From a virus, in the IMG/VR virus record IMGVR_UViG_3300031656_000040, positions 1 through 23,012 of that record: a DNA stretch of 23,012 nucleotides. One strand, given 5' to 3'. A program made the position numbers and the translations under genes. Below, one piece after another: positions 4,273 through 23,012 of this stretch (positions are counted from its first letter, which is position 1; each line of letters opens with the position of its first letter). Under the pieces are notes generated by a model. It ran no database searches. It had not been told where the DNA came from and saw nothing but the letters and a program-made list of their open reading frames with translations.

Positions 4273-4307
4273 TAATTATTGAATTTTAATTCTAATTATT
4301 GAATTTT
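4273..4307. repeat. 15-bp tandem duplication over the capsid stop codon
   Basis: TAATTATTGAATTTT occurs at 4273-4287 and again at 4293-4307 (period 20). The second copy contains the codons for the last residues and the stop of the capsid gene; the first lies in the 3' untranslated stretch. It looks like a small duplication of the gene end. Confidence 0.8.
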
Positions 4308-5930
4308 GTTCAATGCATCTACATAAACTTTACCGTAGAATTCACCTCTTAACATCTGCTTCGCGTAACGTGTCATAACACCTTTACGAGGAGTGAAGTT
4401 TTTAGGGTCATATACTAAAGGAGTCATAATTAATGGAATATATGGTGCATAAACTGCTCCAGTCTCAAGGAATTGATTTCCTCTGTAACCCATTAAGATT
4501 ACGTTCTCTTTCATATAAGGATTCTTATATACAGTAAATCTGCTATTCAAAGCACCAATCTTCTGTACACCAAATGCGAATTGTGCATCACCGTTATCTG
4601 CTGAACTAGCATATCCTGGGATAGATTCGATTATTGTTGCAACATCCGGAGATACTACGATGAAATTTGCTCCACCTCTAAGTGTTTTAGAGTGAATCTT
4701 ATTAGATACACCAGCAATAACTGTTCCTAAAGTCTGGAACCATTGTCCCTGATTGTAAGAAGATGCTTGTGCTGCTGTTGTAGAATAATCTGCAAAACCA
4801 GTACCATTCCATTCTCTACCAACTTGCGTTGACCAGTGACCAGTAGTCTTAGCTTCAGAAATTAACATATCTAAGATTTCAAAATCAATCTCTTGTGAGA
4901 TGTATTCTGATAACATTGAAGTTAATTCAGCTTCTGCATCAATACTATGGTAAGCGTTTAAATCTTGTGCGAATTCAGGAGTCCATTGTGCTTTTAACTT
5001 TCTAGTCTTAGCTACGATAGGTTCTGATTTCATCTCAACATTCAATTCTGGGATATCAGAATCAGTTTCAGGGTTATTTGATAAACCTGTTGCTTCAAAA
5101 TCACCACGAGATGAATCTGTTGGTTGTTTGTGATACTTAACTCTAGTAGTAGTTAATCCAGCTGATTTTACAACAAATACAACATCCGTTCCAACTACTT
5201 TCGTAAATTGTGGAAATTGGTCAACAATTGCAGCGTCATTTAATCTGAATGCTCTAACACCTTTAGTATCTAAACCTGGCATAGAAGCCATTGGTACTAT
5301 TACTGTAAATACAGTTGGAGTATCTAATGATAACTCAGTATTATAAGATGCACTAAATGCAGAATCATAATTGTGTGCACTTGCACCTGCTGCTGAACCT
5401 GTAGTAAATACATTTGTTCCAGCTGCTGCTCCATACGCTTGTTCTACTGTTGCAGTATCATTGATTGTATAACCAAATCTTCCTGCACCATATAATCCAC
5501 CTGATGCATCTGCTGTAGTATCGGTAACACCGAATACAGAATCAGCTTGTGAATCTTTACCTGAACCAGTTGCGAAACCAGGCTGACCTGTTCCATATTT
5601 GAAATCCAAATAGAATACTAAACCTGATGGTAAGTTCATTGGTTGAACTGATACAAATTCTTTTGCTACGATTTCTGAAAAGATTCTTCTTACTAATGGA
5701 AGAGCTACACCCGCCCATTCTTCAGAATTAGAACCACCAGTAGATGATGCTTCTTTTACTAATTGTCTTGCTTGGTTTTCTAAAAGGGTTGCAACACCTG
5801 CTCTTTCAACATCGTTGCTAATTCCTTCTAAAAGTCCAGTCTTTTCCCATTTACCAGCTAAAGCTCTTGTCGCTTCAGATAATCTAGCGGTATGGGAAGT
5901 ACCTTCACTAAGGATATTTTTTAAATTCAT
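4296..5930 (-). CDS. 23: Major capsid protein, T4 gp23 family
   Basis: The 544-residue protein has the diagnostic gp23 stretch LPLVRRIFSEIVAKEFVSVQ followed by PMNLPSGLVFYLDFKYG at about 77-114. This corresponds to the MVRRAIPNLIA and VQPMNSPTG regions of T4 gp23. It forms the hexameric lattice of the head. The first 60 residues look like a removable prosequence. The ILSE|G at residue 9 and LVKE|A at residue 60 fit the gp21 cleavage pattern, and LVKE|A sits where T4 gp23 is cut (FLTE|A after residue 65). A CGGAG Shine-Dalgarno lies 7-11 bases before the ATG. It follows the core protein by 19 bases with no box between, so both share the transcript starting near 7011. A strong terminator ends it. 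Confidence 0.97.
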   Translation of the reverse strand: MNLKNILSEGTSHTARLSEATRALAGKWEKTGLLEGISNDVERAGVATLLENQARQLVKEASSTGGSNSEEWAGVALPLVRRIFSEIVAKEFVSVQPMNLPSGLVFYLDFKYGTGQPGFATGSGKDSQADSVFGVTDTTADASGGLYGAGRFGYTINDTATVEQAYGAAAGTNVFTTGSAAGASAHNYDSAFSASYNTELSLDTPTVFTVIVPMASMPGLDTKGVRAFRLNDAAIVDQFPQFTKVVGTDVVFVVKSAGLTTTRVKYHKQPTDSSRGDFEATGLSNNPETDSDIPELNVEMKSEPIVAKTRKLKAQWTPEFAQDLNAYHSIDAEAELTSMLSEYISQEIDFEILDMLISEAKTTGHWSTQVGREWNGTGFADYSTTAAQASSYNQGQWFQTLGTVIAGVSNKIHSKTLRGGANFIVVSPDVATIIESIPGYASSADNGDAQFAFGVQKIGALNSRFTVYKNPYMKENVILMGYRGNQFLETGAVYAPYIPLIMTPLVYDPKNFTPRKGVMTRYAKQMLRGEFYGKVYVDALNKIQ

Positions 5931-5949: not shown

Positions 5950-6948
5950 TTATTTTAAACCGGCAAGCTTTTTCCAGCGAGCGGCCATTTCATTTCCTTC
6001 AGAAATTATTTTCTTTGGGGCAGAACTCTTAGTTGCTTTTGAAGCATAACCTTCTCTAACAACTACTTTCTTTTTCTTAGCTACGTTAAGATTCTCAGCT
6101 AATGTTGAAAATACTAACTTAACTTCTCTTACTGATGATGTTCTATCAAAGTTTTCAAGAACTTTTACTTTTTGATTTTCATTTAAATCAAATGTTCTGA
6201 ATAATTTGTTAGTATAAAGAAGTTTTGCATTCAATAGATTAACTTCGTTGATAGTTTTTTGTAAACTTTCAATTGTTTTATAAGCTTCTTCTAAATCTGC
6301 AGATGTATCTTCTTCATCTTCTAATTCTTCATCTTCTGTGATTTCTTCTTCATCTGATGCATCTTCCATTTCTTTCAATGTTCTGATAACTTCATCCAAA
6401 TCGATTTCTTCTTCAGAATCTAATTCTTCATCTTCGGTAATTTCTTCTTCTTCAGAATCTAATTCCTCATCTTCAGTCATTTCTTCTTCTTCTTCAGAAT
6501 TCATTTCATCTTCTAGTTCTTTAATGATAGATTCTAAATCTAACTCATCTTCTTCACCGTCTAATTCGATTTCTTCTTCTTCTTCAGTTTCTTCTTCTTC
6601 TGATTCGATTTCTTCTTCTTCAGAATCCATGTCCATTTCTTCTTCTTCAGAGTCCATATCCATTTCTTCTTCTTCAGATTCATCTTCCAATTCATCTTCT
6701 TCTAATTCATCTTCTGAATCAATATCCAATTCCATTTCATCTTCTTCTAATTCAATTTCTGAATCAGTGTCTAATTCCATTTCATCTTCTAAATCTTCAT
6801 CAGCTTCTTCAGCCAACTTTGCAGATATCATAGATTGAAGTTGAGGTGTAAATGCCTCTTCTAACGCTAATTTAGCGTTTGCTAGTGCTGTTTCTTTGAC
6901 AGCTTTTGCATCAGCAATTGCTTCTGATAACAAGTCTTTTCTTGCCAT
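5950..6948 (-). CDS. 22: Acidic prohead core (scaffold) protein, T4 gp22-like
   Basis: Identified by position just before gp23, N-terminal helix, coiled-coil C-terminal half and the end AARWKKLAGLK. Residues 1-46 (MARKDLLSEAIADAKAVKE...) are helical with a gp21-type site LLSE|A at 9. Residues 47-222 are an extreme Glu/Asp tract in which more than half the residues are acidic, partly built of tandem units. Residues 223-290 form a coiled coil (EAYKTIESLQKTINEVNLLN, then KLVFSTLAENL), and 291-332 are basic with a second candidate site IISE|G at 317. Core proteins of this family shape the prohead and are destroyed by the gp21 protease before DNA packaging. The protein is longer than T4 gp22 because of the acidic tract. 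AGGAG precedes the ATG. Confidence 0.88.
   Translation of the reverse strand: MARKDLLSEAIADAKAVKETALANAKLALEEAFTPQLQSMISAKLAEEADEDLEDEMELDTDSEIELEEDEMELDIDSEDELEEDELEDESEEEEMDMDSEEEEMDMDSEEEEIESEEEETEEEEEIELDGEEDELDLESIIKELEDEMNSEEEEEMTEDEELDSEEEEITEDEELDSEEEIDLDEVIRTLKEMEDASDEEEITEDEELEDEEDTSADLEEAYKTIESLQKTINEVNLLNAKLLYTNKLFRTFDLNENQKVKVLENFDRTSSVREVKLVFSTLAENLNVAKKKKVVVREGYASKATKSSAPKKIISEGNEMAARWKKLAGLK
6608..6688. repeat. Three tandem 27-bp units in the acidic tract of the core gene
   Basis: Units start at 6608, 6635 and 6662, each beginning ATTTCTTCTTCTTCAGA on the printed strand. They encode MDMDSEEEE-type nonapeptides. The third unit diverges at its end. A separate cluster of ITEDEELDSEEE units lies at about 6335-6480. 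Confidence 0.8.
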
Positions 6949-7098: not shown

Positions 7099-7350
7099 TT
7101 AAATATCGGGATTATCCTTTCTCCATTGAACTCGTTTTGCGAGCTGCATTTTTCTTCTTTTGATTACGGATGGTTTTAGGAATTCTTTCCGAGCTTTAAG
7201 CTCCTCCAATTTACCACTATCCTTCATCTTCTTTTTGAATAATCTAAGTGCTGGTTCTAAGTTACCACCGATTACCTTTACAGCCAATGCTGCGCCAGGA
7301 ATCATCATATCATTTGTTGTAACTCGTTTGTTCTTACGTTTCTCTTGCAT
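7099..7350 (-). CDS. rpsU: Phage-encoded ribosomal protein bS21
   Basis: Residues 24-77 align well with bacterial S21: VKVIGGNLEPALRLFKKKMK then DSGKLEELKARKEFLKPSVI and KRRKMQLAKR. This matches the E. coli pattern VKV...ALRRFKR...G.L.E.RRRE...KP...KR. It is 83 residues against about 65-71 usually, with a basic N-terminal extension (MQEKRKNKRVTTNDMM); in-frame ATGs at 7308 and 7305 would give a normal-length protein. S21 binds the 30S platform near the anti-Shine-Dalgarno and affects initiation, and phage copies are known. It lies alone between a terminator and a box on each side, inside the prohead module. Unlike its neighbours it has no evident Shine-Dalgarno before ATG 7350. I infer a role in favouring late phage mRNA. 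Confidence 0.88.
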   Translation of the reverse strand: MQEKRKNKRVTTNDMMIPGAALAVKVIGGNLEPALRLFKKKMKDSGKLEELKARKEFLKPSVIKRRKMQLAKRVQWRKDNPDI

Positions 7351-8021: not shown

Positions 8022-10058
8022 TTATCCTATTTTTTTTAATGAGTTAGTTTGTGTTGCCATCCAATCACTTCCAGTCAATCCAGCCATCTTAGATGCCTTC
8101 TTAATAGCCTCTACTGTATTTCTAGCCTTTACTTTGTATTTCTTTTTAGGGTCTAATTTAACACCACTAAGAGTCATTGCTGCGAAACTCATTTCCCACA
8201 TAGCAAATCCTTCGTTTAATTTGTCGAACTTCAATTGCTCTTCTTTTAATGAAGTTACAACCTCACCACGCTCAGATGCTTCTAATTCAGCCAATGTCAT
8301 TTTCATTTTCATTAACTTAGATGATGGTAATGTTCCAATGTTACTTACCATACTAGCTAATTTCATTGAAGGTTCTGATTTCTCTGATTCCTCTAACTCC
8401 TTTAATGTCATTTTCATTTTCATTAACTTAGATGATGGTAAATCACCAAGACCAATTGATTCTTTTATTAAATCTTTTAATTTCATTGTGTTTCCTATTT
8501 CGTTTACTGATTCTTTCATTTTATTTGCTTCTAACTCTATCATCTTTTTGATTTTAGATGGAAGTTTTTTATCAAAGAATTTCACGTTACCTTTGTTATC
8601 TATATGTGCTATATTTTTAAAATCACCATTTTCTTCTACTGCTTTATTATAGATAGTGATACCATTTCCTTTTCTTGCCATACCGATATCATATGCAACT
8701 GCTTCATTTACGGCTTCATTCTGAATCTTACCACTCATTGCTTTGATTAACTTAGCTACTAACTTACCGTTTTCATTATCCTTTATCTTATGTGCTCTAC
8801 CTGATTGATTCTTAAACTTCTCATTTGTTCTAATGAATAATATATTACCCTCTTCAGTTTGTAACATAAAATCACCACCACCCATATGTTTTAATTCAGA
8901 ATGTGGTAATTTTCCTTTACAAGCATTAACAAAATCAGTATCTACATATAAGGTATCATTACTTTTCCAAACATTCTTAGAACCCTCATTTACTGATTCG
9001 TATCTGAAGTCCTGATTAGCCATTGATTTTTCTGATTTGATTGCCAACAACCCCTGCTTTGATTTAGGAATTTTTAATTGCTTAATTGCTTTTAACTTTG
9101 CATCCCATAAATCTTTACCTTCTATCTTATGTTGTTTATTATTATAGAATGCGATGAACTTAGTTTCATTTACTGATTCATTCGATTTAACTTTCTTACT
9201 CAATGCTTTTAATTTCATTAGTTCTTTTTTTAATAACTTATCAGTACCACGCTCAATACCCCAATTGAATGATGCACTAAATAATTGATACCAAGGTAAT
9301 GTTCCGTATGCTTTACCGAATGCTGATGTATTTATCCAATAAATATAATGTTCAGCCATTTCTTTTGAAAGTTTAATTCCCTCTACTTCCTTAGATTTAC
9401 CTGCGGCAACTAATTTAAGTAATTTTACAGCTGATACTCTTCCTTCGTTAACTACTGATTCTTTAGCGAATTCTTTAGCGTTTTCTTTATCATCAGAATC
9501 TACATCCTTAACTGGGAATGTTTCACCATCAACTTCGAATGAATCACTACCATTTGCGATTGCCTTTGCTCTTGCAGCACCAAATTCATTCCCTTCATCT
9601 AAATCACTATCACCATTATGGATTTCATAATACTTTCCAAGAACTTCACCAATCTCATCATAAGATGATTCCATACGTTGTTGTAATGTTGCAACTTCGG
9701 TAAGCGTTTTTTCAAATACTCTATATGATTCATTCATTCTCTTCATATGACGAGAAACGGTTACACCATCGAACCAATCACCAGTCTCTTTGATAGTTAC
9801 CTTATTAGCAACCTCAACTAAACCTTTGATAGAATTACACACTTCCTTTAATTCACTTTTTCTGTAAATAGATTCACCAAACTTCTTATACTGTTTAACA
9901 GCTTCTAAGAATACTTCACGTTGTTCGGATGTAAATTCATCACTCTCTTTAGATTGTTCATCTTGCTCCTTTACAAACGATGTTGCGTATGGGTCTGAAT
10001 AAACTTTACCCACAGTTGGGTTCATTGCTTCATTCAATAAGTCTTTTAGTTTTTTCAT
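8022..10058 (-). CDS. Bead-like modular protein with repeated VNE sites (678 aa)
   Basis: No named family is recognised. It begins MKKLKDLLNE|AMNP, like a T4 capsid-targeting peptide. The long first part (11-205) is helical. After it come small blocks bounded by near-identical sites: SVVNE205|G, SVNE298|T, SVNE358|G, AVNE452|A, SVNE520|I and KLNE616|G, giving pieces of about 93, 60, 94, 68, 96 and 62 residues. The blocks differ from one another (299-358 has KFIAFYNNKQHKIEGKDLWD; 617-678 has FAMWEMSFAAMTLSGVKLDP). Residues 525-533 restart with MKLKDLIKE, another targeting-like peptide, with its own Shine-Dalgarno. Two copies of LPSSKLMKMKMTL lie at 540-552 and 577-589. The gene lies directly after the prohead protease. 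I infer a packaged polyprotein cut into beads; a plain structural protein with linker motifs is the alternative. Confidence 0.8.
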   Translation of the reverse strand: MKKLKDLLNEAMNPTVGKVYSDPYATSFVKEQDEQSKESDEFTSEQREVFLEAVKQYKKFGESIYRKSELKEVCNSIKGLVEVANKVTIKETGDWFDGVTVSRHMKRMNESYRVFEKTLTEVATLQQRMESSYDEIGEVLGKYYEIHNGDSDLDEGNEFGAARAKAIANGSDSFEVDGETFPVKDVDSDDKENAKEFAKESVVNEGRVSAVKLLKLVAAGKSKEVEGIKLSKEMAEHYIYWINTSAFGKAYGTLPWYQLFSASFNWGIERGTDKLLKKELMKLKALSKKVKSNESVNETKFIAFYNNKQHKIEGKDLWDAKLKAIKQLKIPKSKQGLLAIKSEKSMANQDFRYESVNEGSKNVWKSNDTLYVDTDFVNACKGKLPHSELKHMGGGDFMLQTEEGNILFIRTNEKFKNQSGRAHKIKDNENGKLVAKLIKAMSGKIQNEAVNEAVAYDIGMARKGNGITIYNKAVEENGDFKNIAHIDNKGNVKFFDKKLPSKIKKMIELEANKMKESVNEIGNTMKLKDLIKESIGLGDLPSSKLMKMKMTLKELEESEKSEPSMKLASMVSNIGTLPSSKLMKMKMTLAELEASERGEVVTSLKEEQLKFDKLNEGFAMWEMSFAAMTLSGVKLDPKKKYKVKARNTVEAIKKASKMAGLTGSDWMATQTNSLKKIG
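8293..8441. repeat. 38-bp perfect direct repeat in the modular gene
   Basis: AATGTCATTTTCATTTTCAT onward is identical at 8293-8330 and 8404-8441, 111 bp (37 codons) apart. It encodes the doubled PSSKLMKMKMTL element. Confidence 0.88.
8484..8496 (-). promoter_or_regulatory. Internal ribosome binding site and ATG (codon 525 of the modular gene)
   Basis: Minus strand AGGAAACACAATG places an AGGAA Shine-Dalgarno 5 bases before the in-frame ATG at 8486. The protein from here begins MKLKDLIKESIGLGDLPSSK, like a fresh N-terminus. It could yield a separate 154-residue product (8022-8486), or mark an old fusion of two genes. Confidence 0.45.
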
Positions 10059-10073
10059 TGTATTACCTAAGTT

Positions 10074-10688
10074 TTATATTGTACAAACACCATCAATTTC
10101 ACAGATGATGTCACGTACTAATGTATTAATTTTTTTATATGATTTTGTAGAACCCCTTTTTACGGATTCATTAACAGGTCTCATAAATGCACCATGTGTT
10201 GATGGGTTCGATACGAAATCCCAACAGATTAAATCAAAATCAGCATCAACTGTAACCGTTCCATTATCAGATGATTCTTTAACTGAACCTAATCCCCTAG
10301 ATGATATACCAACCGTACATCCTGCTTCTAACAGTTCTTTAAGGATATTTCCTGATGGAGTTTTTAGTATCTCTACCTTTCCAATTACATCATTACCTTC
10401 CCACCATATATCACGTATGATATGAGATGTATTTTTTAATTCTATTACAGATGCATCTGGATGGTCTAACTCACCGAATGCTCTATTTTCTTTTACTTCT
10501 CTACCCATATACTTCTTTACTTCTCGTTTGAGAATTTCAGTTGGATAGATTCTTCCGTTTTGGTTTTCTGCTTCAGAACGTTGTAATACACCTTCAACTA
10601 TTAAACGACCATTGTTCTTTGACATGGATTCGTTAAGTTGATTCGGCGTTATACTAAACGGTATTATATCTACTAATAGTTTACTCAT
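10074..10688 (-). CDS. 21: Prohead maturation protease, T4 gp21-like (serine protease)
   Basis: The 204-residue protein matches the herpes-assemblin-like prohead protease fold. The segment NGRIYPTEIL is at 44-53, the catalytic-His block AFGELDHPD at 70-78 (His76), and the catalytic-Ser block TVGISSRGLGSV at 125-136 (Ser129/130). A DFDLICWDFVSNPS block is at 150-163. T4 gp21 cuts the scaffold, capsid and internal proteins after Glu in L/I-x-E sites and also cuts itself. Here QLNE20|S and PVNE174|S near the two ends fit self-processing. The gene lies between a 45-residue gene (overlap TAATG) and the modular protein (8022-10058), whose many VNE sites would be natural substrates. The catalytic assignments rest on motif recognition only. 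Confidence 0.93.
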   Translation of the reverse strand: MSKLLVDIIPFSITPNQLNESMSKNNGRLIVEGVLQRSEAENQNGRIYPTEILKREVKKYMGREVKENRAFGELDHPDASVIELKNTSHIIRDIWWEGNDVIGKVEILKTPSGNILKELLEAGCTVGISSRGLGSVKESSDNGTVTVDADFDLICWDFVSNPSTHGAFMRPVNESVKRGSTKSYKKINTLVRDIICEIDGVCTI

Positions 10689-12206: not shown

Positions 12207-14084
12207 TTAATTATCAGAATCCATTATGTTTTTCTCATCTAATAATGGAGATTCTATAATACCATCATCAATTTTTAAAGATTCTGTGATTATTTTATTT
12301 GATTTTACTTTCATTCTCATCTGATTTAACATTGATTTAGTAGCCTTTGCATTTACTACCTCATTTGCGTTATAACCATTTGAACTTTCTGCTTTTATAC
12401 TAATACTTTTGTTACCAAGTGGGTCTCTACCAAATGGGGATTTATCCTTCCCATAAGTATTACCCTCTTTAGGTCTACCAGCACCTTCATAACCACCCTC
12501 TGGTGTTTCAGATTCAATTTGTGGTTGAGAAGCTTCCCCATCTGATGATTGGCTTACAGTAGCAAGGTCATGTGGAGTTCCGAATGATTCACCAGTCTTA
12601 ATCGGGTCATTACCCTCACTCTCAATCTGTTCTTGTCTGAATCCTAATTTAAGGTCATTAATAACCTTCATCTGCTCAGCCTTCCACTCATCATCACTCA
12701 TATTGAAAATGTTTTTATACATCCATTCTTGTGATACCATTTTAAGGTCTTTTAAATCCCTTACCAATGAAGCTTTCTCACTCCATAAGTTTGCTTTCTC
12801 TTGCTCATATATAATAGATGGAGTTGTTAACTCCAATTCAAAGTTTACTAACTCTGCATCTTCATAACCCTGTGAGTATAAGTGAACTATTGCAATCTTA
12901 GTTAATTCTGATAATACAATCTTTTGAATTCTCTCTACTGAACGAGCGAATCTGATATCTTGTTGTGCTAACGTAGCCTTTCCATCTACACCCTCATCGT
13001 ATCCAATAAATGCCTTTGGAACTTTAAGTGCTGCTAACATTCTATTCTTTAAATATTCGATATCATCAATACCACCGAATTCCATACCACTAAGAGAGTC
13101 AATCTCAGTACCACTTTGCCCACCTCTTACAGGTAAGTAATAATCCTCTAGCATATTCTGCATATTGAATTTTAAGTTGTACTCACCAGTCTCTTCATCT
13201 ATATATGGAACTTTCTTCATTTGTTCAATGATGTTTGCCATATAAGTATCTACCTCAGCAGGTGGGATGTTACCAATATCAATTTTGAATATTCTCTTTT
13301 CAGGTGCTCTCATAATTCTGTGAATCATCATCGCATCTTCCATAAGAACTAATTGCTTCCAAGTCTTTCTTGCACCTTCTAATAACGAACGACCGTAAGG
13401 TAGAAAGTTTGTATCAGTTAATAATCTGAAATGTGCTACTTGAAATGATTCTAAGAATTTAGAATCGGTTTGATGAGCGCCTCTAGTTGTGTTTTGCTCA
13501 TCTACTTCGAATCGTACTGAATATGGGTTATCTAAATCATATCCCTCTTCTCTACGAGTTTCATATACCGATAGTGGTTGTGCGTTTACTACACCCAATT
13601 CATCATCTATATCTAAATACAAATAATAATCACCATACTTATCCATACCACGAACCCACGACCATAAATTGAATTCAATATTCAATACATCGTAAAATAA
13701 ATTGTGTAATGTTTTCTTTAACTTCTCATCTGATGATTTAATTCTAAGAACATCACCCATATCATTTTTAAGAGTTGATTCATCTGAATATATATCCAAT
13801 ATCGATGAGATAATAGAATCTTTATCCATTGCTTCATAATCAGAATACAATTCTAATTTATTTGCATGATATGCGAATCGTTCGTTATACGTTTGCCAAT
13901 TCTTTCTAGAATTAGAACCATGTAATCTACCGTACTTATCGTACCCTTTCGAACTACCACCAGCACCGGCGCTTTGTAGTTTCGATGAATCCACTACTTT
14001 TATTTTATTCTTACCAACACGTCGTACAACGACTTGAGTTGAGAATAATTTCCTTAATCTACTGTATAATGAGTTATCTGCCAT
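12207..14084 (-). CDS. 20: Portal vertex protein, T4 gp20 family
   Basis: The 625-residue protein carries gp20 hallmarks. These include ARKTWKQLVLMEDAMMIHRI then MRAPEKRIFKIDIGNIP (about 236-272), and YLKNRMLAALKVPKAFIGYD with ATLAQQDIRFARSVERIQK further on. The dodecameric portal nucleates the prohead, docks the terminase and conducts DNA. The C-terminal 130 residues are low-complexity and Gly/Ser/Glu-rich, and end with a tail containing IITE|SLKIDD, a gp21-like site. T4 gp20 is not known to me to be processed, so this may be a decoy or a real difference. It is longer than T4 gp20 (524) mainly through this tail. No clear Shine-Dalgarno precedes ATG 14084. It sits between terminase and the head accessory genes, as in T4. 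Confidence 0.95.
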   Translation of the reverse strand: MADNSLYSRLRKLFSTQVVVRRVGKNKIKVVDSSKLQSAGAGGSSKGYDKYGRLHGSNSRKNWQTYNERFAYHANKLELYSDYEAMDKDSIISSILDIYSDESTLKNDMGDVLRIKSSDEKLKKTLHNLFYDVLNIEFNLWSWVRGMDKYGDYYLYLDIDDELGVVNAQPLSVYETRREEGYDLDNPYSVRFEVDEQNTTRGAHQTDSKFLESFQVAHFRLLTDTNFLPYGRSLLEGARKTWKQLVLMEDAMMIHRIMRAPEKRIFKIDIGNIPPAEVDTYMANIIEQMKKVPYIDEETGEYNLKFNMQNMLEDYYLPVRGGQSGTEIDSLSGMEFGGIDDIEYLKNRMLAALKVPKAFIGYDEGVDGKATLAQQDIRFARSVERIQKIVLSELTKIAIVHLYSQGYEDAELVNFELELTTPSIIYEQEKANLWSEKASLVRDLKDLKMVSQEWMYKNIFNMSDDEWKAEQMKVINDLKLGFRQEQIESEGNDPIKTGESFGTPHDLATVSQSSDGEASQPQIESETPEGGYEGAGRPKEGNTYGKDKSPFGRDPLGNKSISIKAESSNGYNANEVVNAKATKSMLNQMRMKVKSNKIITESLKIDDGIIESPLLDEKNIMDSDN

Positions 14085-14149: not shown

Positions 14150-15721
14150 TTATAATAACCAACTCATATCTTCATCACCTTTTCCAGTGTTATGCTTCCA
14201 AGCATTCTTCGCTTGAGTTGATGTTGTTTTAAAAACCCCAGTACTCTTTGAGGTTAATGATAAAGCCTTTCTATTTAATTCTATCCCTTGTTGTCTTAAT
14301 TTTAATGCGGTATCCCTTACCCACAGTGCCGTTGAGAATGATATAGTTAAATCATCATTGTATCCCTGTTGGGCTTCTGCTCTACTACCATTCCAAATAA
14401 ATACAAACAACTCATCAATTAATCGCTTAGAGCGAATGATGGGAGTTCGTTCTCTCATATAAGTATCTAGTTTAGATATAACCAATGGACGAGTTCTACT
14501 TGTCATTGAGAATCCAGGAACCATCTGAGATTTATCCTTTAAATCAAATCCCTTATTCAAATGAATATCGTTATCTACATAACCCACATCCTTATATGAA
14601 TAGTATAGATTTGTGTAGTTCCTATCGATAGCTTCCTGAATTACAGCCCACCCAATGTTTGCGTTTTCAATTACTAATAATGCATCATTCCATTCGGTTG
14701 CTACATTAACTAACATTCTACCGTAATCTTTGGTATCTATCTTACCTTTATATTCTGCTACTTGCTCTAATGATTCTATATCAATAACGTGAAATGCTGA
14801 GTAATCTTTTCCATCACCCCTAGCGACATCGGCTACTACTACATAATCTCTACTATAATTTGGCTGTTGCCATAACCAATAGTTCCCATCAAACCCACGC
14901 TTTTCAACCGGGTCTTGTACATACGTTTCTTCATACCATTGTAAGAGTTCACCATCAACAACAGTATAACCAGATGAAATGAAATCACAATCACATTCCT
15001 GTGCTGCCATCTTCTCACCTAATAATTGCGTTTGCTTATCTCTCCACGCTTCATCACGCTCAGGATGTACAGTCCAATGTAATTTAGTTGGATTCCAACC
15101 ATCACCCTGCTCACCCTTTTGCCAAGTCTTATGAAAGAAATTACCAACACCATTTGGAGTTGATAATACAATTGCTTTCCCACCAGTCGAAAGTGTTGAT
15201 TGGGCTGATGCCCATATCTCATCTACATTTTTAATAAATGCAGCCTCATCAATGATTAACATTGATAGTGCCTCAGAACGACCAGCATCACCACTAGCGG
15301 ATGTTGCTTTAATCTGTGAACCGTTTCCTAATCTTAATGATAATTTGTTATCCTCTATAGTATCACCCCTTAACCAAGATGGAAGGTTTTCGTGCATATA
15401 TCGAACCTTAGTTACTAAGTTCTTTGCTACTTCCTGCTTTGTTGCGATTACTAATATATTCTTATCAGCATGAAATAACATCATCCACAAAGAGTACCCT
15501 GCTGATAATGTTGATATACCTAATTGACGTGATTTAAGAATTACATTGAATTGATGTTCATCAATATCATCCATAAGGTCTTCTTGAAACTCAAATAAGT
15601 CAAATAGAATTTTCCCACGTTTTGGATGTTGAATGTAACAATACTTTCTGAAAAAGTATATTGGATTTGAAGCGCACTTTACATACTCTTCTGAAATAAG
15701 TTCTTTTATGGATTTACTCAT
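14150..15721 (-). CDS. 17: Terminase large subunit, T4 gp17 family
   Basis: I place the start at ATG 15721 (MSKSIKELISEE), one base after the upstream stop, in preference to the in-frame TTG at 15733; this gives 523 residues. The N-terminal ATPase has a deviant Walker A, KSRQLGIST (63-71), with Lys at the front and no Lys at the usual GK position. It also has Walker B LIIDEA (155-160) and the coupling motif STPNG (187-191). The C-terminal RNase H-like nuclease shows its three acidic sites: VVVADVARGDGKDYSAF (D298), LVIENAN (E352) and GYNDDLTIS (D456/D457). This is the motor that cuts and packages DNA through the portal encoded next. No small terminase subunit is evident nearby. Confidence 0.97.
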   Translation of the reverse strand: MSKSIKELISEEYVKCASNPIYFFRKYCYIQHPKRGKILFDLFEFQEDLMDDIDEHQFNVILKSRQLGISTLSAGYSLWMMLFHADKNILVIATKQEVAKNLVTKVRYMHENLPSWLRGDTIEDNKLSLRLGNGSQIKATSASGDAGRSEALSMLIIDEAAFIKNVDEIWASAQSTLSTGGKAIVLSTPNGVGNFFHKTWQKGEQGDGWNPTKLHWTVHPERDEAWRDKQTQLLGEKMAAQECDCDFISSGYTVVDGELLQWYEETYVQDPVEKRGFDGNYWLWQQPNYSRDYVVVADVARGDGKDYSAFHVIDIESLEQVAEYKGKIDTKDYGRMLVNVATEWNDALLVIENANIGWAVIQEAIDRNYTNLYYSYKDVGYVDNDIHLNKGFDLKDKSQMVPGFSMTSRTRPLVISKLDTYMRERTPIIRSKRLIDELFVFIWNGSRAEAQQGYNDDLTISFSTALWVRDTALKLRQQGIELNRKALSLTSKSTGVFKTTSTQAKNAWKHNTGKGDEDMSWLL

Positions 15722-15722
15722 A

Positions 15723-16319
15723 CTACTTGCCAATTTTCCAAAGAAACTGAGCTGATAGTATTGGTTTTAATTGTTCATCTAAACCAATACCTAAACCAAA
15801 TGCTTGCTTCTTCTTATTTTTATATAATATCTGTGCACCTACATAGTTAAGTTGACTGGTTTTACCAGCGATACCAAATCCCCAATAGAATTCACGTTGA
15901 TTAATGAACTCAGTTTCGGTAACAGTTACGGTTGGGTAGATTAAATCGTATTTTATTTTTCTAGACAGTATTTTGTTTTGAGATATACTATCTATAATTT
16001 CTAAATTTAACGAATCGGTTTTGTGAACATCAGAATAAACGTATGTTGCAAAGTAATCCTTTAATATAGCAGTCGTATCAATCTTTTGAGTAATTAATAT
16101 AGTATCTACATCTCTCACTACTCTAGTAACTATTTTTGGTATGTACGTTGGAATTTCCTTTACAATCGTATCATACTTCACTATGGTGTTGGTTATAACT
16201 CTAGCAGGCTTGGTAATAGAATCAATGGAGTTACCATCGCACGACCTTAATAATACGATTATTACAATCAATACTACTATTAGTACATTTTTTAAATTAC
16301 CAAACACTTGCTTAATCAT
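15723..16319 (-). CDS. Membrane-anchored protein before terminase (198 aa)
   Basis: Residues 12-24 form one strongly hydrophobic segment (VLIVVLIVIIVLL) after a short basic N-terminus, followed by RSCDGNS. The Cys could be a lipidation site, but Arg at -2 makes a poor lipobox, so an uncleaved anchor is equally likely. The body is rich in Thr/Ile/Val with repeated D-T-I-x-K patterns (VKYDTIVKEIPTYIPKIVTR, DVDTILITQKIDTTAI). The last 60 residues look like amphipathic beta strands (YVGAQILYKNKKKQAFGLGI, ending SAQFLWKIGK), as in outer-membrane or envelope-spanning proteins. Its start overlaps the previous stop as TAATG. A lysis or envelope role such as a spanin is possible, but I know no family to support it. 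Confidence 0.75.
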   Translation of the reverse strand: MIKQVFGNLKNVLIVVLIVIIVLLRSCDGNSIDSITKPARVITNTIVKYDTIVKEIPTYIPKIVTRVVRDVDTILITQKIDTTAILKDYFATYVYSDVHKTDSLNLEIIDSISQNKILSRKIKYDLIYPTVTVTETEFINQREFYWGFGIAGKTSQLNYVGAQILYKNKKKQAFGLGIGLDEQLKPILSAQFLWKIGK

Positions 16320-18961: not shown

Positions 18962-21229
18962 TTAAAAGTACATTAATCCTAAAATTTGATTTAAACTAGC
19001 AAATGCGCCTGTAAGTTTATATGTGTTACCTTTAAATACGAAAACTAATCCTTCATTTGGTACAATCTTTTCTTTACCACCAATTGCCGCTAATCGTTCA
19101 AGTTCCATTTTAAGTTTTGTAATCTTCGCAGGGTTACCTGATTTACTAACATCTTTAATTGTCTGGTCTAATCTAGCTTTCATAGCCCTAACTGCTGTAT
19201 CGGGATTTACTGTTAGAATTGAACTCATAAATGATAAAACTTCAGCACCTACACCTAAAAATATATCCTCAAACTTTCTAATGTTTATTTTTGCCATCTT
19301 AGAATGGTCTTGCTTATCTACACTAATTGCCCACGCTAATGTCGTAGCATCTGTAAATGTTTTTTTATTTAATCGATTTGATTTATCAAAGAATGCCCAT
19401 CTCTTTACTAATGACATTTTAGCTGTATTATCTAATGTGGTTGGTGAGTTTTTATCAACCCATTGCTCCCACCATGCTTGATGATAATCAGCTACACCAT
19501 CTGAGTCCTTTAAACTGAATTCAGATTGTATTTTTTTAAGTTGAGAATTAAACTTTGATTGTAATTTTGATAATTCTTTATTTTTAGGTAATTGTGTTAT
19601 CGGTGGTCCTTGTATTGTGTATTTATCAGTAACGTGTTTGTTAACTTGCTTAATCATTCCAGCTAATATTTTGGCAGCTGCCATATTATCACCAATCTGA
19701 ACACCTTTATCATTAAATTCCGCTGCGTTATGGAATACCAATAAAGCCTGACCATATGGGACTACATTTACCGATTTCGGCCATATTACTTCTAAGTTTA
19801 CAAATACCTTACCCTGTTGGAATATCTTATCTCTCTGTTTTGATGATAGTGATTTCACTGCATTACTCAAATCTCTCATTGCGAATTCATATGCATCAGT
19901 TAAACCACCACGACCAGAGAACTTAGATTTCATCCCACTTATATCTAAAGCGTTTTCACCTTTGTTTTTTAAGTGTCCACCATTTCGTGCTGCGATTAAA
20001 CCCTTATCATCTCTCCAACTAACTGCTAATGCCTGTCCATCGGTTTTTTCTCTAGCCAATTCCAACTTACCATTTAATGCCCCGCTGATAATTTGTTTTA
20101 AATCACCAAACGTTAAATTCATCTCAATATCAAATGGGTGATTCATATGACCATACGCCCCACCTTCGGTAATTACACCTTCCTTAATCGTAGGTGGAGT
20201 TACTACTTTCTTTGGTTCGTTTTCAGAATCATCAATAGCACCATCTGCATCTAAGAAATCAACTAAGGTGTACCCAACTGCTGTTGCGATTTGGGTAATA
20301 TGAGATTTCCATTTTTTAAATGCATCAGTCCCCTTATAATCACTATATCGTTGAGATTGAGCATCTAACCCAGCTACACCCGATGGGAAATATGATACGG
20401 GATGTTTATCAGTAAGAGTACGTGCGCTATCTGCGAATATACTATCATCCTCATCCATTATATAATCAACGACCTGCCACCCTAACATAGTAGCAGTGTT
20501 ATTACTAATTGATTTATATGATTTGAAATTACCATAAAATGCACCTGGACCATCATCAACCGATGATTGACCTGTGGTTGACATTGCTGATACCTCACTT
20601 ATTAACGATGTAATATCAAACTTACTAAGGAAGTTCTCCATAACGGATTCAACCTTAAACAACCTACTACTTACTAATTTAAATATCTTCGGGTCAAACT
20701 TACCATATGCCTTTTTGAATCCAGCCTTACGTTGAGTTTCCGAACCCTTTGCTAACCAATTACGAACATCAGTTCCACTAATTGCGTTTGGTTGTGCTGG
20801 CGCAACATAAACATACCCAACTTTATCATAACCACTTTCAATCTTATCTGATTGATATGGTTTGAAGTACTTACCACCCAGTCGAGCCTTATCCTTTTCA
20901 CCAACTACGGTGATGAATGCGGTTGTTTCTTTTGGAAACTTTCCTATAATCTCAGTTGGAGCGTATGGGTTCTTAATTTGTACTATTTTATTTGATGTAA
21001 TGTTAAACATAGACATCATTATAGATTTCTTTTCTTTAAACTTAAATGGTGATTTGATATTATCAGTTTTATCTGATGTACCTATATACACATTACTTTT
21101 TCCGAACTTTTTTACTAAATTCATATAAGTTGCATAATGCCCCTTATGGAATGGTTGGAATCTACCCGCGTAAACTACTACTTGCTTATCTATATTTTCC
21201 GTTAAGATTTCCTTAACCCACTCTTTCAT
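18962..21229 (-). CDS. NMN/cytidylyl-transferase fused to a ligase-type nucleotidyltransferase (755 aa)
   Basis: Residues 1-190 are an HIGH-superfamily nucleotidyltransferase: VVVYAGRFQPFHKGH at 17-31 with the HxGH motif (H28, H31), and the second motif AISGTDVRNW at about 149-158. This is the pattern of NMN adenylyltransferases and cytidylyltransferases. A linker of unknown fold covers roughly 215-345. The C-terminal part has the signature of covalent nucleotidyltransferases (DNA/RNA ligases): motif I EKTDG with Lys395, AARNGG, motif III VNLEVIWP with Glu480, and at the very end motif IV EGLVF (726-730) and motif V YKLTG (737-741). About 240 residues separate motifs III and IV, a large insertion. 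I chose ATG 21229 over 21241 because the longer start lies 3 bases from a box. The resulting N-terminus MKEWVKEILTE resembles a T4 capsid-targeting peptide. Substrates are unknown. Confidence 0.85.
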   Translation of the reverse strand: MKEWVKEILTENIDKQVVVYAGRFQPFHKGHYATYMNLVKKFGKSNVYIGTSDKTDNIKSPFKFKEKKSIMMSMFNITSNKIVQIKNPYAPTEIIGKFPKETTAFITVVGEKDKARLGGKYFKPYQSDKIESGYDKVGYVYVAPAQPNAISGTDVRNWLAKGSETQRKAGFKKAYGKFDPKIFKLVSSRLFKVESVMENFLSKFDITSLISEVSAMSTTGQSSVDDGPGAFYGNFKSYKSISNNTATMLGWQVVDYIMDEDDSIFADSARTLTDKHPVSYFPSGVAGLDAQSQRYSDYKGTDAFKKWKSHITQIATAVGYTLVDFLDADGAIDDSENEPKKVVTPPTIKEGVITEGGAYGHMNHPFDIEMNLTFGDLKQIISGALNGKLELAREKTDGQALAVSWRDDKGLIAARNGGHLKNKGENALDISGMKSKFSGRGGLTDAYEFAMRDLSNAVKSLSSKQRDKIFQQGKVFVNLEVIWPKSVNVVPYGQALLVFHNAAEFNDKGVQIGDNMAAAKILAGMIKQVNKHVTDKYTIQGPPITQLPKNKELSKLQSKFNSQLKKIQSEFSLKDSDGVADYHQAWWEQWVDKNSPTTLDNTAKMSLVKRWAFFDKSNRLNKKTFTDATTLAWAISVDKQDHSKMAKINIRKFEDIFLGVGAEVLSFMSSILTVNPDTAVRAMKARLDQTIKDVSKSGNPAKITKLKMELERLAAIGGKEKIVPNEGLVFVFKGNTYKLTGAFASLNQILGLMYF

Positions 21230-21244
21230 TAAATTTCCCATACT

Positions 21245-21357: not shown

Positions 21358-23012
21358 CTACCCACAATATAAGTATCCGTAAATACCACTCACCTTTCCA
21401 TTAGAATCAAATGTACAATCTTCCATACACTTACCAACGGTAAATGAATGTATTGATTGCTGCTCATCATATACAGGGATACCATCATTAAATCCAGTAA
21501 TGATATATTCAACGGGTTGTTTCATAACATACCCAGCTACATTAGATGAACATACTAAATCACCCTTAGATACTGGTCCATTTTGATTACATACCTTCAT
21601 ACCATCAAGAGATAAGTTACTTTTGGTATCAAAATGACGAGTATCACCAATTGCCGCAACTTTCCATATAGATTTAATTGCTCTGTCAGATTCAGGTATA
21701 ATAGTATTTAATGAATCCATATAGTGTTTAGATTTATCCAACTCAGTATCACTATATTCAACCATTGCCCATAAAATTCCAATTACAGCCGAATCCGTAT
21801 CGGACGTTACTGAGATTAGCTCATTATTTTCATCTAATTTAACTAAATCACCAACCTGAAGTATTACATTATTATATTTTATATGATGGTGTGGTAATGT
21901 TGTTGTTGTGACTGCGAATTTTGTAGAAGTACCACCCGTCGCACCAGTCGCACCAGTCGCACCAGTTGGTCCGGCTATACCAGCAGGTCCAGCAGTACCA
22001 TTAATTCCATTAGTACCAGCATCTCCTTTTGCGCCGGCAGCGCCATTTGTTCCATTTGTTCCATTTGTACCGTTTGAGCCTTTTAATGATGTTAAGAATG
22101 TAGTTGAATTACCGGTGTTTGCTGGTACTGCCGACCAAATCTCAAATGCAGAATCGCCATCTTCACCATCATCCCCATTTGTTCCATTCGAACCATCATC
22201 TCCATCAATTCCATTAGTACCAGCATCTCCTTTTGCGCCGGCAGCGCCATTTGTTCCATTCGAGCCATCTAATCCATTCGAACCATCATCTCCATCAATT
22301 CCATTAGTACCAGCATCTCCTTTAGCACCATTAGTTCCATTTGTTCCATCCGAACCATTCGAGCCATTCGAGCCATCTAATCCATTCGAACCATCATCTC
22401 CATCAATTCCATTAGTACCAGCATCTCCTTTAGCACCATTAGTTCCATTTGTTCCATCCGAACCATTCGAGCCATCCGAACCATCGAAATAATCAACACC
22501 TTTAACGGGCGATATCCCATCCGAGCCATCATCTCCATCAATTCCATTCGAACCAGCATCTCCTTTAGCACCATTAGTTCCATTTGTTCCATCCGAACCA
22601 TTCGAGCCATCTAATCCATTCGAACCAGCATCCCCTTTAGCACCATCAGTTCCATTCGAGCCATCCGAACCATCGAAATAATCAACACCTTTAACGGGTG
22701 ATATCCCATCCGAGCCATTAGTTCCATCCGAGCCATTAGTTCCATTCGAACCATCATCTCCAGCATCCCCTTTAGCACCATCAGTTCCATTCGAACCATC
22801 CGAACCATCGAAATAATCAACACCTTTAACGGGCGATATCCCATCCGAGCCATTAGTTCCATTCGAACCATTCGAACCATCAGTTCCATCGAAATAATCA
22901 ACACCTTTAACGGGCGATATCCCATCCGAGCCATTAGTTCCATTCGAACCATTCGAACCATCAGTTCCATCGAAATAATCAACACCTTTAACGGGCGATA
23001 TCCCATCCGAGC
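21358..23012 (-). CDS. Collagen-like fibre protein, C-terminal 550 residues (cut by right edge)
   Basis: The frame ending at 21358 stays open through an ATG at 21765 to the window edge, so that ATG is internal. Reading in sense, the visible part is a long Gly-X-Y array rich in GTNG, GSDG and GDDG triplets. Five DGISPVKGVDYFDG elements interrupt it. A non-collagen patch (SAFEIWSAVPANTGNSTTFL, 22084-22155) follows, then a second short array (GTNGTNGAAGAKGDAG..., GPTGATGATGATGG). The last 190 residues are a globular cap with VGDLV..., GPVSKGDLVCSSNVAGYVMK, and the end SFTVGKCMEDCTFDSNGKVS then GIYGYLYCG. That end resembles C-terminal caps of phage fibre proteins I know. Collagen-like segments form trimeric rods, so this is probably a fibre shaft with a receptor-side or trimerising cap. 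Confidence 0.88.
   Translation of the reverse strand, partial: SDGISPVKGVDYFDGTDGSNGSNGTNGSDGISPVKGVDYFDGTDGSNGSNGTNGSDGISPVKGVDYFDGSDGSNGTDGAKGDAGDDGSNGTNGSDGTNGSDGISPVKGVDYFDGSDGSNGTDGAKGDAGSNGLDGSNGSDGTNGTNGAKGDAGSNGIDGDDGSDGISPVKGVDYFDGSDGSNGSDGTNGTNGAKGDAGTNGIDGDDGSNGLDGSNGSNGSDGTNGTNGAKGDAGTNGIDGDDGSNGLDGSNGTNGAAGAKGDAGTNGIDGDDGSNGTNGDDGEDGDSAFEIWSAVPANTGNSTTFLTSLKGSNGTNGTNGTNGAAGAKGDAGTNGINGTAGPAGIAGPTGATGATGATGGTSTKFAVTTTTLPHHHIKYNNVILQVGDLVKLDENNELISVTSDTDSAVIGILWAMVEYSDTELDKSKHYMDSLNTIIPESDRAIKSIWKVAAIGDTRHFDTKSNLSLDGMKVCNQNGPVSKGDLVCSSNVAGYVMKQPVEYIITGFNDGIPVYDEQQSIHSFTVGKCMEDCTFDSNGKVSGIYGYLYCG
22481..23004. repeat. Repeated block coding for FDG-DYFDVGKVPSI element, 81-bp period at the right end
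   Basis: The block CCATCGAAATAATCAACACC (continuing to about 40 bp) begins at 22481, 22670, 22805, 22886 and 22967. The spacings of 189, 135, 81 and 81 bp are all multiples of 9, that is, whole Gly-X-Y triplets. The last three units are almost identical tandem copies of 81 bp, and the array continues beyond the window. Confidence 0.92.

Follow-up and report, generated by a model that had tools for sequence, protein, structure and literature searches.

A probable capsid-packaged, protease-processed precursor polyprotein with NMNAT-like and RNA-ligase-like modules in T4-like phages

The window, that is, the whole stretch of viral DNA that we analyzed (23,012 nucleotides; IMG/VR record IMGVR_UViG_3300031656_000040), contains a minus-strand frame at positions 18962 to 21229 that encodes 755 amino acids (aa) with no internal stop in its translation. 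The original prediction began this protein at the ATG at 21229, and our residue numbers follow that Met unless they are marked as domain numbering. Relatives, however, are already conserved upstream of this Met, from the in-frame ATG at position 21241 (in the window, MGNLMKEWVKEILTE; compare MGNLMKNWVKEVLTE and MGKLIKEWVKEILTE). As they share the start pattern MG[NK]LxKxWVK from that position, the real start is probably ATG 21241, and the whole gene would then span 18962 to 21241 and encode 759 aa.

All parts of the gene lie on the minus strand. The protein opens with a capsid-targeting-like N terminus (MGNLMKEWVKEILTE/N, the slash marking a predicted cut, here after residue 11; 21197 to 21241). 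It is followed by an NMNAT-like HIGH nucleotidyltransferase module (residues 12 to 200; 20630 to 21196), supported by profiles, alignment, and a model, in which translation and alignment place the motifs GRFQPFHKGH (residues 22 to 31; 21137 to 21166) and ISGTDVR (residues 150 to 156; 20762 to 20782). A linker (20594 to 20653), in which a site scan predicts the prohead-protease sites VESVME/N (198) and SLISE/V (212), leads to a module here called DDGP (residues 213 to 345; 20195 to 20593), which has a low-confidence model. A second linker, TIKE/GVITE/GG (20165 to 20194), has the junction pattern of predicted cuts after residues 350 and 355. The remainder is an RNA-ligase-like nucleotidyltransferase module (residues 356 to 755; 18965 to 20164), assigned by alignment, model, and structure comparison. 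Its aligned motifs are motif I, EKTDG (394 to 398, with Lys395; 20036 to 20050); a motif III-like LEVIW (479 to 483, with Glu480; 19781 to 19795); motif IV, EGLVF (726 to 730, with Glu726; 19040 to 19054); and a motif V-like YKLTG (737 to 741, with Lys738; 19007 to 19021), in which the second Lys of KxK is replaced by Thr. A gap of 150 residues separates the NMNAT-type HIGH domain from the ligase-superfamily domain, and the two nucleotidyltransferase motif sets that had been predicted in one chain are both present in frame.

The HIGH domain matches CTP_transf_like in Pfam (E = 2e-5), PHROG 395 (phrog_395; 6e-14), and the NMNAT models of NCBIfam, the last with E values down to 1e-9 but all under the curated cutoffs (best scores of 24 to 38 bits versus cutoffs of 127 to 449); the general CTP_transf_like model alone passes. 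The AlphaFold model of the N-terminal part is good for residues 12 to 200 only. In a comparison with the PDB, its top structural match is the NMNAT/ADPRP enzyme 2qjt (Z = 12.8), and because PPAT and NadD score nearly as high, the fold leaves the substrate of the domain unfixed. Among 35 aligned sequences, S151, G152, T153, and R156 of the ISGT-x-x-R motif are invariant, and the HxGH within GRFxPxHxGH is intact in the window protein. The original prediction depended on catalytic residues being retained in relatives. They are kept in the window clade, but 27 of the 80 relatives with a readable motif, mostly from a marine clade, have Gly in place of the first His of HxGH (GPHH, GIHH, or GLHH). 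At the marine loci L065, L079, and L216 and others like them, GPHH replaces HxGH clade-wide with the last His kept, a possible sign of a substrate change.

The strongest of the alternatives that we weighed concerns this domain. The protein could be a NARP-like counter-defense factor, in which the NMNAT rebuilds NAD after NADase defenses have acted and the ligase part is incidental. Such a role would fit the NMNAT-type HMM and fold matches and published speculation on packaged cyanophage NMNATs (PMC9602691, PMC10665884), and host NMN could still supply the domain. According to a review, however, every phage with NadM also has NadV (PMC9503650), whereas NadV/NAMPT (PF04095) was present in 2 of 20 records and missing in 18 (several records are fragments), being absent from both the complete Mel-JY01 genome and the 484-kb LR756508 record. 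This absence weakens NAD salvage and, with it, the earlier proposal that the first domain makes NAD; the loss of the first HIGH His in about a third of the readable relatives also counts against it. We consider a NARP-like role possible but unlikely.

The ligase module was aligned across the modules of 30 diverse relatives. The invariant positions are the K, D, and G of motif I, R60, E125, E371-G372, and K383-x-T-G (domain numbering), which correspond in the window protein to Lys395, Asp397-Gly398, Arg415, Glu480, Glu726-Gly727, and Lys738. In all 123 nonredundant ligase modules, motif I has an upstream Glu (EK[TL]DG) and motif V reads K[LF]TG, with the first Lys kept and the second changed to Thr. 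A typical ligase motif V is K-x-K; its second Lys is absent here, which cautions against taking sealing activity for granted. The 246 residues from Glu480 to Glu726, mostly helical in the model, had been described as about 240 extra residues between motifs III and IV. That figure is the full spacing and not an excess: in T4 Rnl2 the same spacing runs from E99 to E204, and the excess relative to Rnl2 is nearer ∼140 residues. One relative (L061:5576-9080) has an apparent split intein, with an HNH-like open reading frame (ORF) between its halves, exactly between the Lys and Thr of motif I (EK/C...VHN/TDG, slashes marking the intein boundaries), a position consistent with an essential active site.

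Searches of the PDB and Pfam with the ligase module sequence gave nothing meaningful, and the Pfam RNA-ligase profiles had no match at an E value of ≤1 in 17 family members; the fold is visible from the structural model alone (AlphaFold, built from the 30-module alignment; mean pLDDT, 86.6). Against solved structures, VIA-align places the Naegleria RNA ligase (Z = 8.9), T4 Rnl1 (8.6), and T4 Rnl2 (8.0) in the lead. These Z scores are modest but coherent, as every one of the best 50 structural matches listed belongs to the ligase or capping superfamily. Foldseek with the same model was weak (E of only about 0.01). Models and PDB comparison thus back the prediction of two unrelated folds, with 2qjt at Z = 12.8 for one and RNA ligases at Z = 8 to 8.9 for the other.

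To place the protein among its relatives, we collected at least 538 matching stretches from IMG/VR, with 229 complete ligase modules. The start breakpoints of BLAST high-scoring segment pairs gave only a diffuse peak, so module HMMs were adopted, and architectures were counted in 72 nonredundant complete ORFs; the relatives share ancestry, and neither these counts nor those of sites and junctions below represent independent events. The ligase module is C terminal in all 72 ORFs and the NMNAT module is present in 70, yet there are 29 module orders, so that two or more unrelated conflict or repair domains are shuffled between relatives. Exchangeable modules lie both between and before the NMNAT and ligase domains. 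They include a CCA-adding/poly(A) polymerase head (Pfam E values down to 4e-34), HD modules that in part match the HD portion of CCA enzymes, a PNK/zeta-like P-loop kinase, DUF5661, PAP2, and several unnamed modules. A PF05618 protease is embedded in one relative (L225), and 3 of the 72 contain a module that looks metalloprotease-like by eye; no embedded peptidase was recognized in the window protein or in most family members. The labels ParB-like, metalloprotease-like, and ART are motif readings without a family match. A scan of genome contigs returned four loci only, all in metagenome-assembled genomes (MAGs), and revealed no clear cellular family; the ligase of one locus (L002), used as a query, found no relatives in IMG/VR.

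These architectures bear on the idea that the gene encodes a genuine bifunctional enzyme, one chain in which the NMNAT-like domain supplies NAD or ATP to the ligase-like domain. Both domains do share one ORF in 70 of the 72 complete relatives, and 17 consist of NMNAT-DDGP-LIG alone. The distance between the two domains nevertheless ranges from 27 to 1,508 residues, other enzymes may intervene, the junctions resemble protease sites, and in three loci (L166, L157, and L150) fission has left the pieces in separate genes; moreover, ligases are normally served by cellular ATP. The earlier suggestion that the first domain feeds the second fares poorly for the same reasons, and we regard a single bifunctional enzyme as improbable and this reading as probably wrong.

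We then examined the linkers for sites of the prohead protease. The cleavage specificity of T4 gp21 is [L/I]-x-E. That the T4 prohead protease cleaves after Glu is documented (PMC5694885). The 116 distinct 10-mers that directly precede the ligase module have Leu or Ile at P3 in 116/116, Glu at P1 in 112/116, and a variable P2, so that 112 of them fit the form [LI]-x-E/GG; L079/L212-type junctions read LLLM/GG. The ligase model is disordered over its first residues, so this motif probably lies outside the ligase fold. The density of [LI].E is 4.7 times higher in linkers than in modules, against ratios of 0.7 to 1.1 for [LIV].D/K/N/Q and 1.9 to 2.2 for Glu-containing controls. Sites found with a position-specific scoring matrix (PSSM) trained on the junctions are 22 to 44 times denser in the other linkers than in modules. 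A strong PSSM site is absent at most starts of IPVKVGD, HD, CCA, and PNK modules, and we therefore do not claim cleavage at every boundary.

Inside several modules, the same triplet is depleted. The observed/expected ratio (O/E) of [LI].E is 0.36 in LIG, 0.09 in DDGP, 0.17 in CCA, and 0 in STLNK modules, compared with 0.96 in the large terminase (TerL) and 0.95 in the portal, and [LI]..E is not depleted within modules. A direct comparison is offered by CCA enzymes: 14 CCA modules contain 8 [LI].E triplets versus 42 expected (O/E, 0.19; 0 to 2 per protein), whereas 12 standalone phage CCA enzymes contain 39 versus 38 expected (O/E, 1.02; 2 to 5 per protein), while the E.[LI] and [LI].D controls differ little between the two sets. 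The pattern is not universal, as the NMNAT and PNK modules overall show no such depletion; close to half of the sites in NMNAT modules, however, fall at the C-terminal edge of the domain. Could [LI]xE simply be a compositional habit of Glu/Leu-rich helical linkers, uninformative about processing? The linkers are indeed Glu rich, and even the Glu control motifs are about twofold enriched in them. The spacing-specific enrichment, the depletion of [LI].E but not [LI]..E, the absence of depletion in standalone CCA enzymes, TerL, and portal, and the uniform P3 residue at the ligase junctions are all difficult to explain by composition, which we judge a quite improbable account.

The N terminus and the gene neighborhood point toward the head. 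A start resembling a capsid-targeting sequence (CTS) and ending in hydrophobic-x-Glu is found in the window protein, for which a targeting-like N terminus was originally predicted, and in 64 of the 72 polyproteins overall (8/72 with Asp as a control; 0/66 portals). As it also occurs in 23 of 107 terminases, the motif alone is weak, and one group (L066) has no obvious CTS. CTS-like starts on pieces of split polyproteins are more telling. The NMNAT and ligase parts are separate genes at L166, L157, and L150, and the ligase is a lone ORF at L137, L141, L107, L129, and L157. At L166, one ORF ends with the NMNAT module and the next begins with MKTLSEDLIKRFLKE; at L157, the lone ligase starts with MKFLKSYEEFLNENLILE/GG and a lone DUF5661 with MEFVKTYLEFINE; and the pieces at L107, L129, L137, and L141 have CTS-like starts of their own (e.g., MIRLGKLLNEVLLKE/GG). 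At L150:5071-7191, the NMNAT, IPVKVGD, and ligase parts occupy three overlapping frames, which may reflect frameshifts or a decaying or split copy.

The phage that encodes the polyprotein also encodes its predicted processor, a T4 gp21-type prohead protease (Peptidase_S77; 10074 to 10688; E = 1e-34). Profiles further identify a gp23-type major capsid protein (4296 to 5930), whose start, MNLKNILSE, is of the same type as the polyprotein N terminus, a gp20-type portal (12207 to 14084), and a large terminase (14150 to 15733), all on the minus strand. Other minus-strand ORFs of the window also drew our attention. Between the prohead protease and gp23, a 678-aa ORF (8022 to 10058) has small domains separated by repeated spacers that read ESVNE or EAVNE, as well as a second, internal MKLKDLIKE, making it a candidate second processed polyprotein. 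A very acidic ORF with Glu/Asp runs (5950 to 6948) adjoins gp23, starts with MARKDLLSE, and has the look of a scaffold or core protein. A small basic ORF in the head gene block (7099 to 7350) resembles ribosomal protein bS21; bS21 homologues have been described for phages infecting Bacteroidetes (PMC9723584). A collagen-like ORF with GSNGTNG repeats (21358 to 23012) adjoins the polyprotein gene and runs off the window end.

Virion proteomes offer a plausible route for the predicted action at entry: NMNAT-like or cytidylyltransferase proteins were detected in virions of the cyanomyoviruses S-SCSM1, S-CREM2, S-CBWM1, and S-SZBM1, although the authors caution that carry-over is possible (PMC10665884, PMC9602691). 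S-SCSM1 ORF91 belongs to phrog_395 (1e-104) and starts with MKSFLQFLKE/A; compared directly, it resembles the window protein only weakly, and the link is the shared phrog_395 profile. The N-terminal CTS and next ∼50 residues of ORF91 (L262:28820-30049) match the start of another large phage family, phrog_3561, a hint that cyanophages commonly carry modular CTS cargo. The least probable alternative, that the protein is a morphogenetic or scaffold-core component in which old enzymes serve as head filler and are cut up merely for clearance, would suit the head gene cluster and the precedent of the T4 core proteins gp22, gp67, and gp68, which gp21 cleaves and which for the most part exit the head (PMC7411985). 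It is very improbable, however, given that catalytic residues do not vary in either domain within the window clade or among ligase modules, that intact-looking enzymes such as CCA have been acquired, and that cut sites are depleted inside several modules, which would preserve those modules intact.

From the domains and their conserved catalytic residues, the shuffling, the site pattern and its depletion in several modules, the fissions, the gene context, and the modeled folds, we infer that the gene probably encodes a capsid-packaged precursor polyprotein for RNA and nucleotide repair that is processed by the gp21-type protease; packaging combined with processing is likewise probable. The N-terminal targeting peptide would recruit the precursor into the prohead, where the protease would cut its linkers after [L/I]-x-E and free an NMNAT-like enzyme, the small DDGP domain, and an RNA-ligase-like enzyme within the head. 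In the cultured Microcystis phage Mel-JY01 (WWT39297.1), the predicted new N terminus of the ligase is GGLGGHMNHPFDD, after ...NNNIIAE, and a further cut is predicted at ...LHIFSE/DDSFG. The freed enzymes would be ejected with the DNA and, in the first minutes of infection, most likely protect or repair host or phage RNA, such as nicked or end-damaged tRNA, as well as adenine-nucleotide pools; the strings of relatives would add CCA-adding, HD, and PNK-like kinase modules.

Because these three modules accompany an RNA-ligase-like fold, RNA repair, a theme already raised in the original prediction, is the function that we favor, and it is a serious if tentative candidate for the main role. Mel-JY01, LR756508, and one further record encode conventional RNA ligases at other loci, so the polyprotein ligase, if packaged, would be an early-acting addition and not a replacement; given the separate RNA ligase of Mel-JY01, it may also do something else. 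More broadly, we lean toward the view that some T4-like phages make an RNA-virus-style cargo polyprotein of up to about nine enzymes and small domains (NMNAT-like, RNA-ligase-like, CCA-adding, HD, PNK-like kinase, ART-like, and others), which the head protease would cut and which would be injected as an immediate RNA-repair and counter-defense kit, the cargo having lost internal sites. If so, a CTS-like start with [LI]xE-bounded modules purged of internal sites would allow virion cargo to be read from genomes, including those of uncultured phages, and "cytidyltransferase-like" annotations would denote precursors and not single enzymes. RNA-ligase-like and tRNA-end repair enzymes would reach the host before phage gene expression, a timing relevant to how phages withstand anticodon nucleases and other immediate RNA-cutting defenses.

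Our search of open-licence papers found no description of enzyme polyproteins processed by a prohead protease, and the known systems each resemble the family in part. Like NadM NMNAT/ADPRP, with 2qjt as its top structure, the window HIGH domain has GRFQPFHKGH, SPF, and ISGT-R; unlike NadM, the protein has a ligase-like partner in place of a Nudix domain, and NadV is usually not found. The ligase module shares its fold and motifs I, Ia, III, and IV with T4 RNA ligases 1 and 2 and the Naegleria RNA ligase but differs in lacking a Pfam RNA-ligase match and in its long helical insertion between motifs III and IV, its KxT, and its location among head genes. The phrog_395 virion proteins S-SCSM1 ORF91 and S-CREM2 ORF154 have a related HIGH domain, and the former also has a T4-like CTS; however, ORF91 (409 aa) does not significantly match the ligase module, and ORF154 (about 286 aa) is too short for both domains.

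The closest parallels lie in T4 internal proteins and polyvalent proteins. T4 IPI to IPIII and Alt are CTS proteins that are cut by gp21, are ejected, and have diverse counter-defense roles (PMC7411985, PMC3012670). The window family resembles them in its short capsid-targeting propeptide with a gp21-type cut site (cut and ejection being predictions from sequence here), but each T4 protein has one gene and one propeptide, whereas the family has several enzymes per precursor and extra internal sites. Polyvalent proteins (Iyer et al. 2017, PMC5512222) are multidomain phage proteins that the authors liken to polyproteins; a keyword search of that paper did not find the pairing of an NMNAT with an RNA-ligase fold. 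They have in common with the window family shuffled effector, repair, and metalloprotease-like modules, and they are presumed to be carried into the host along with the DNA. Their release is proposed to depend on peptidases embedded in the chain, whereas the sites of the window family fit a separate prohead protease. The family is best read as a variant of both polyvalent proteins and T4 internal proteins: a packaged precursor that the head protease cleaves.
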